A stretch of 64,000 nucleotides of DNA, taken from the NCBI RefSeq assembly GCF_016904885.1, contig NZ_JADWYI010000001.1, positions 6,510,001-6,574,000 of the forward strand, read 5' to 3'. The notes under the pieces were generated by a model, which worked only from the letters and a program-made list of their open reading frames with translations, searched no databases and was not told the DNA's origin. The DNA is from Archangium primigenium. GTDB taxonomy: Bacteria; Myxococcota; Myxococcia; Myxococcales; Myxococcaceae. The position numbers were made by a program, and so were the translations under genes. Of the stretch, positions 16,623 to 17,850 are shown one piece after another; position 1 is the stretch's first letter; the number at the start of each line of letters is the position of its first letter.

Positions 16623-16851
16623 GCGGGCCCGACCCGGTGACCCTGACATCGCGCCCGTCCCCCATTACCCGTCCCTGTGGGAGGCGGGAGCGATGGCGGG
16701 AAGGCGAGGTGGCGACAATCCCCAGTGCCCTACAGGCTTGGCTGCCCGGAAAGGTTTTTCCTCCCTGTAACGCTTACGGAGGCGCACCCCGGACGCGGCT
16801 ATCCCACAAGCCAAGTGTGCGTGGGGATTGACGAATTTTCGCGTGAAGGTG

Positions 16852-16867
16852 TGGCACGCACGTTGCT
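16852..16867 (+). promoter_or_regulatory. Sigma-54 promoter of the RpoH-type sigma gene
   Basis: TGGCACG-CACG-TTGCT is a perfect match to the TGGCACGN4TTGCW consensus. Transcription would begin about 11 bases downstream, leaving a leader of roughly 80 bases before ATG 16960. The rest of the 372-base gap (16588-16959) is the likely enhancer region; a small inverted repeat GTAA-CGC-TTAC sits at 16767-16777, about 100 bases upstream of the start point. Confidence 0.8.
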
Positions 16868-16959: not shown

Positions 16960-17850
16960 ATGCAGCTCACCACGGAGCAGTCGTCCAACTCGGGCTCGCT
17001 GGCCATGTACCTCTCGGAGATCAACCAGTACTCGCTGCTGTCGGTCGACGAGGAGCAGGCCCTGGCGCGCCGCTTCCTCCAGGCGGACCTGGCCGCGGGA
17101 CACCGGCTGGTGACCTCCAATCTGCGCTTCGTCGTGAAGGTCGCCTACGAGTACCGCTCCTACGGCATCAAGATGTCCGACCTCATCCAGGAGGGGAACA
17201 TCGGCCTGATGAAGGCGGTGCAGAAGTTCGATCCCGACAAGGGCATCCGCCTCATCTCGTACGCGGTGTGGTGGATCCGCGCGTACATCCAGAACTACAT
17301 CCTCAAGAGCTGGAGCCTCGTGAAGCTCGGGACCACCCAGGCCCAGCGCAAGCTCTTCTTCTCGCTGGCCCGCACGCGGCGCGAACTGGAGAAGTTCGGC
17401 ACGCTGGACGGCTCGGTGGTCAACGTGGACGAGATCGCCCGCAAGCTCAACGTGAAGGCCACCGAGGTGCGCGAGATGGAGCAGCGCATGGGCGGGCGGG
17501 ATCTGTCGCTGGACGCGCCCATGGGCGAGGACGGGGGCAACAGCCACGTGGACTTCGTGGCGAGCGAGACCGCGCCGCAGGACGCCGAGTTCGCCGACAA
17601 GGAGGAGACGGGCCTCATCAACACGCGGGTGCGCACGGCGCTCATGCGGTTGGATCCCCGCGAGCGCTTCATCATCGAGCAGCGCGTGATGAACGAGCGC
17701 CCCATGACGCTCAAGGAGCTGGGCGAGCACTTCGGCTTCTCGCGCGAGCGCGCGCGCCAGCTGGAGATCCGCGCCAAGGACAAGCTCAAGTCGGAGCTGG
17801 CGGCGCTGATGGCCGAGGTGGACCCCGAGGCGACCGAGGCGGTGCAGTAG
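16960..17850 (+). CDS. RpoH-type (sigma-32 family) RNA polymerase sigma factor
   Basis: A sigma factor of 296 residues. Region 1.2/2.1 starts [21 protein letters not shown]; region 2 has [37 protein letters not shown] and [12 protein letters not shown]; region 4 has [22 protein letters not shown]. The stretch [15 protein letters not shown] matches the RpoH box region that distinguishes sigma-32 proteins from RpoD and RpoS. Length agrees with RpoH (about 285-300). Myxobacteria hold several such paralogs, some developmental (SigB/SigC type), so the heat-shock role is not assured and no symbol is given. Its promoter is sigma-54 dependent, which makes a two-step sigma cascade likely. Confidence 0.92.

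Follow-up and report, generated by a model that had tools for sequence, protein, structure and literature searches.

In the RpoN-RpoS cascade of Borrelia, sigma-54 and one activator together make a second-tier sigma factor. A sigma-54 promoter is also said to precede rpoH of E. coli, where Janaszak et al. reportedly described it in 2007, and the site that we find there, TGGCACAGTTGTTGCT, has one mismatch and is located 56 nt before the ATG. For rpoH of Salmonella, a perfect sigma-54 site, TGGCACGGTTGTTGCT, has been described (PMC3844500). In Myxococcus xanthus, sigma-54 acts together with activators (Nla28, ActB and others) to drive sequential developmental genes (PMC7910581, PMC9765219), and its gene rpoN does not tolerate deletion (PMC12316311). 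This organism has the sigma-32 homologs SigB (MXAN_3357) and SigC (MXAN_6209). Upon induction with glycerol, rpoN responds early (class I) and sigB and sigC later (class II), by 50.5-fold and 140.5-fold, respectively, and the authors tie sigB to spore maturation (PMC2875238). The same article, from 2010, takes the view that development of M. xanthus runs on non-sigma regulators, as opposed to the sigma cascades of Bacillus. The main texts of the Nla28 and natural-product sigma-54 papers make no mention of sigB or sigC, and the literature that we searched yielded no sigma-54 promoter for either gene in myxobacteria; the original papers of 1990 and 1993 may report one.

Here, we analyzed a gene for a sigma-32-type protein from Archangium primigenium that very likely has a sigma-54 promoter of its own. 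As in enteric rpoH, the sigma-54 site lies shortly before the sigma-32 gene. In the enteric bacteria, however, the heat-shock factor has several promoters, of which this is one, whereas here it is the sole promoter recognized, and it is found order-wide, before two or three paralogous genes in a genome, which have different upstream boxes. The Borrelia cascade likewise leads from sigma-54 to a second-tier sigma factor, but there the second tier is RpoS, encoded in a single copy, and here it would consist of sigma-32-type paralogs. While the named targets in the enhancer-binding protein cascade of M. xanthus are other activators and developmental loci, the predicted target here is a sigma factor. 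SigB and SigC are further counterparts, as sigma-32 homologs whose genes rise late in induced sporulation.

The predicted promoter element and the gene that follows it

All positions refer to the window, that is the whole 64,000-nt stretch of DNA that was analyzed (contig 1, bases 6510001-6574000; genome size 9.49 Mb); coordinates prefixed G000:C1 are those of the genome. The string TGGCACGCACGTTGCT (Table 1), for which the original prediction had claimed a perfect sigma-54 promoter, indeed agrees at all fixed bases with the consensus as printed, TGGCACG-N4-TTGC(T/A) (PMC9765219). It contains TGGCAC-N5-TTGC with GG and GC correctly spaced, and a pattern scan of the window found this zero-mismatch match only. 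The distance of 93 nt between position 16867 and the ATG at 16960 had also been given correctly. We consider the sigma-54 promoter call very likely right. The transcription start was placed with the start-distance rule for sigma-54 promoters, at a position that agrees with the original prediction. In the stretch that separates the promoter from the preceding gene, we noticed an imperfect inverted repeat with 23-nt arms (16642-16700), perhaps the transcript end of that gene.

Table 1. Predicted features at the sigma-32-type locus, with positions in the window
Feature	Position	Strand	Remarks
Near-palindrome GTAACGCTTAC (GTAA-N3-TTAC), candidate enhancer site	16767-16777		Centre at about -106 from the predicted start
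Second, weaker conserved stretch	16811-16835	+	CCAAGT...GGGGATT here; ortholog profile CAAcCCC..GGGGAA
Sigma-54 -24/-12 promoter element TGGCACG-CACG-TTGCT	16852-16867	+	Consensus match, conserved in orthologs
Predicted transcription start	16878	+	12 nt after C16866, taken as -12
Sigma-32-family sigma factor (P0001), 296 aa, probable SigB ortholog	16960-17850	+	Assigned with family models; orthology probable

The assignment of the gene product to the sigma-32 family stood as well. With the NCBIfam model NF005143 for the sigma-32 subfamily, the protein scored 321.1 bits, which is above the cut-off of 241, and with the RpoH equivalog model TIGR02392 it scored 322.7 bits, just below the cut-off of 323.1 (its paralogs reached 316.5 and 314.9). 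Because the latter cut-off was not reached, the protein was filed as a member of the sigma-32 family and not as an RpoH equivalog. Its fold is not in doubt, and its best solved relative is 8hkc, with a chain named RpoH. Identity to E. coli RpoH extends to 117 of 284 residues, and the sequence QRKLFFSL differs by one change from QRKLFFNL in the E. coli protein, a motif that we take to be the 'RpoH box'.

Map position and elimination suggest that the gene is most likely the ortholog of sigB. Two close relatives and a third one with 44% identity were found in M. xanthus strain AM003. In the window and in AM003 alike, the upstream neighbor on the same strand is transglutaminase-like and the downstream neighbor is oligopeptide-transporter-like (both named by eye), and the M. 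xanthus ortholog (L081) also has the sigma-54 site. In an 8.97-Mb genome (G023), the ortholog is found at 44% of the map and the 76% identical paralog at 83%, places that lie near those implied by the gene numbers 3357 and 6209. The 76% paralog (L226) has a divergent neighbor, as does sigC, in contrast to the same-strand upstream neighbor of the window gene. A literature search for the gene order around SigB (MXAN_3355, 3356, 3358 and 3359) gave nothing.

Chance expectation, conservation and spread of the site

Taken alone, the string is weak evidence, because both strands of the genome hold 64 copies of the pattern at no more than one mismatch and 33 copies of the reversed pattern. The search of the window at up to two mismatches found seven sites where 6.02 were expected and did not exceed chance, a result in favor of the reading that the conserved string is a chance match or the site of some other protein. 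The genomic setting of the copies is what speaks against this reading. The genome encodes three close sigma-32-type proteins (100, 77 and 77% identity), and all three genes have a sigma-54 site, with 0, 1 and 1 mismatch and at 108, 83 and 94 nt before the start of the match, where the genome rate predicts about 0.004 sites for three upstream stretches of 400 nt. The other 30 of the 33 Sigma70_r2 genes of the genome served as control. Within 450 nt upstream, none of these 30 sigma-70-family genes had a site with one mismatch or less, and a single one had a two-mismatch site, at 307 nt. The next sigma-32-type relative in the genome (L004, 44% identity), which also scores above the sigma-32 subfamily cut-off, lacks a sigma-54 site upstream, and no sigma-factor gene was seen by eye next to the two further sites of the genome that match the consensus exactly (L009 and L011).

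Relatives were collected as 147 loci picked by protein similarity and not by the presence of the site. At least 250 nt of upstream DNA were available for 146 of them, comprising 128 distinct regions; many of the sampled genomes are close relatives, and the counts are not independent events. A site with two mismatches or less was present in 122 of the 128 regions, as compared to a mean of 2.5 and a maximum of 14 regions for 60 permuted motifs and to six regions on the reverse strand. The best match per region had no mismatch in four cases, one in 73, two in 45, three in two, four in three and five in one. By group, the site was found at all 50 orthologs, at 49 of the 50 family paralogs and at 23 of the 28 other loci of the order; its absence from six of the 128 regions indicates that the link can be lost. 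TGGCA and TTGC were invariant in the 49 distinct orthologs, and the flanks have diverged. As the presence of GG and GC was a condition for the selection of the profile sites, the invariance of these four bases is built in, unlike that of the others. Information content averages 2.0 bits per base over the nine core positions of this profile and 0.38 bits in the flank between -200 and -20. Between the site and a fixed codon, the distance in orthologs ranges from 283 to 333 nt. Conservation of the GG/GC pair in relatives, which the original prediction had named as a check, was borne out by 49 of 49 profiled orthologs as well as by the unrestricted scan, with its full count of orthologs at two mismatches or less.

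In a maximum-likelihood tree of 115 proteins, the site-bearing genes fell into one clade with support of 100/98. Inside this clade the site was present in 78 of 89 rows and outside in one of 26, on a very long branch (L274). The clade includes the family, Anaeromyxobacter and uncultured families of the order; in A. oryzae, an Anaeromyxobacter, two genes have the site (L136/L150 and L153). Lineages inside the clade that are devoid of it include L128/L247, L137/L251, L129 and L142. One of the 17 loci sampled in other classes of the phylum had a site within two mismatches. The sigma-32-type gene L274 itself comes from another class (G067) and has its own one-mismatch site at 86 nt. The distribution suggests a probable single origin of the wiring near the base of the order, or else widespread loss elsewhere. 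The element is conserved position by position, with exact GG/GC spacing, in different genes, genera and families. Given the permutation controls, the ortholog profile and the tree, a chance match or another protein's site is very unlikely, indeed close to negligible.

Two loci in the collection (L087 and L109, on BNCN01000021.1 and BNCN01000022.1) are titled 'Comamonas sp. KCTC 72670' and are Myxococcus-type sigma-32 genes with 89 and 77% identity. This assembly is probably mislabelled or mixed.

Upstream boxes and the predicted relay

Enhancer sites are usually located around the distance at which the near-palindrome GTAACGCTTAC lies from the predicted start, and we regard the box as a candidate activator-binding site for the promoter; it could also belong to another kind of regulator. 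When a range of 60-110 nt was considered, 46 of 48 distinct orthologs had it within one mismatch, at 83-87 nt before the TGG (permuted mean 0.2, maximum 12). In a wider range, 48 of 49 distinct orthologs had it within one mismatch; ten of the 49 deviated by one base and L094 had no box. By eye, it is unlike the Nla28 half-site CT(C/G)CG(C/G)AG. The idea that the palindrome is common to many promoters was dropped, as GTAACGSTTAC occurs a single time in the genome and its pairing with a sigma-54 site is likewise found once. Nor is it shared by the paralogs, since only 12 of 50 family paralogs have it within one mismatch. At its position, the family paralogs carry GTAAAAACNNCC, in 44 of 50 cases within two mismatches, a soft count in view of a permuted maximum of 35. 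The ortholog form of the second stretch, CCAANCCC, was present in 33 of 49 orthologs, close to the permuted maximum of 34, and the paralog counterpart GCAA...CC...ATTCA, at 41-43 nt, in 45 of 49, with a permuted maximum of 11. It thus seems that the paralogs have sigma-54 in common and use different enhancers.

The fixed-spacing box bears on the question whether the sigma-54 holoenzyme, instead of initiating transcription, could occupy the site chiefly to block another promoter. A study that puts forward a repressive class of RpoN sites in E. coli includes rpoH in its list of RpoN sites (PMC8743547). However, an activated promoter requires just such a box at a fixed distance upstream, and our admittedly weak scanner saw no overlapping promoter. 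We consider the blocking function quite improbable.

The genome encodes one match to PF04552, that is a single rpoN, and 47 PF00158 activator domain matches, of which 42 exceed 70 bits. Together with the order-wide conservation and the fixed upstream box, these findings lend support to the two-tier relay claimed in the original prediction, which is also our best reading. In this relay, sigma-54 RNA polymerase would transcribe the gene from the element in Table 1, while an enhancer-binding protein would occupy a site some 100 nt upstream, for which the near-palindrome is the most likely candidate, and with ATP would open the closed complex, so that RNA starts around 16878. The sigma-32-family product is then expected to guide polymerase to a second group of genes. 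The probable ortholog sigB would serve late development or spore maturation, and not heat shock, in relatives that form fruiting bodies. Judged jointly, control of the sigma-32-type gene as a second tier by sigma-54 polymerase and an enhancer-binding protein appears to us quite probable, to the point of good confidence.

The sister genes would belong to the same tier. The three paralogs of the genome have in common the segments that presumably read the DNA and which we take to be region 2.4 and the region 4.2 helix. The two motifs occur in 126 and 137 of the 146 clade proteins, respectively, and in none of 23 outside rows, counts that are descriptive and not a test, as the motifs were written after the sequences had been viewed. 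This suggests that the paralogs may have overlapping targets.

A strong enhancer-binding protein match (G000:C1:6574547-6575047) is located about 550 nt past the end of the window and 47 kb downstream of the sigma gene; we saw no sign that it is the partner of this gene. Outside the window, G000:C1:8811725-8812724 contains a sigma-54-like string with one mismatch in four identical copies, spaced at 328 nt, which suggests a tandem array of units of this length. The array lies about 1 kb from an enhancer-binding protein domain match (8813687-8814187).

The sigma-54 promoter might also be real but auxiliary, with other promoters dominating and with a product that acts as a general stress sigma factor, heat and envelope stress included. 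The enteric genes offer precedent, as the E. coli gene has its own sigma-54 site before the ATG and encodes a protein with the above-mentioned degree of identity to ours, and Salmonella rpoH is bound by sigma-54 without its reporter being lower in an rpoN mutant, for which the authors blame sigma-70-type promoters (PMC3844500). Upstream of our gene, a weak scanner detected no sigma-70-like promoter. Although it has to be kept in view, we regard the auxiliary role as rather unlikely, also in light of the heat-shock evidence that follows.

Heat shock, development and the origin of the wiring

According to the title of their 2001 article, Ueki and Inouye reportedly found SigB, SigC and SigE of M. 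xanthus not to be needed for heat shock and to be needed for multicellular differentiation. In the present genome, hrcA was identified at G000:C1:1518373, and a CIRCE box with one mismatch lies 82 nt before groES-groEL (L281 1501-1527; G000:C1:7206823-7206849). The two may offer another means of heat-shock gene control, and like the 2001 title they argue against a general stress factor behind an auxiliary promoter. The doubt that the original prediction had cast on the heat-shock label fits both lines of evidence; its inference from promoter to function fails, since E. coli and Salmonella rpoH, both heat-shock factors, have sigma-54 sites and the promoter thus gives no argument against heat shock. 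With regard to development, an RNA-seq study of M. xanthus in eLife names rpoN and sigC as developmentally regulated and, in the parts of the article considered here, does not name sigB (PMC6791715).

The tie that had been drawn between the sigma-54 promoter and development proved too narrow. Anaeromyxobacter is not known to form fruiting bodies and is wired alike, so that development is unlikely to have been the original purpose. As most Myxococcota sampled outside the clade have no site, the distribution also speaks for independent origins of the myxobacterial and the enteric wiring. Going further, we tentatively put forward, as a possibility that we would not favor outright, that throughout the order sigma-54 and different activators drive two or three sigma-32 paralogs with near-identical DNA-reading segments, so that different signals would converge on one regulon through parallel relays older than fruiting and later co-opted by it.

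A sigma-54 site before a sigma-32 gene is thus common to enteric bacteria and Myxococcales, with most other sampled lineages of Myxococcota lacking it. With one conserved 11-bp box, present in the genome as a single copy, the search for the activator becomes tractable. If the relay is used, a sigma cascade would be built into the development of M. xanthus after all, with sigma-54 on top.
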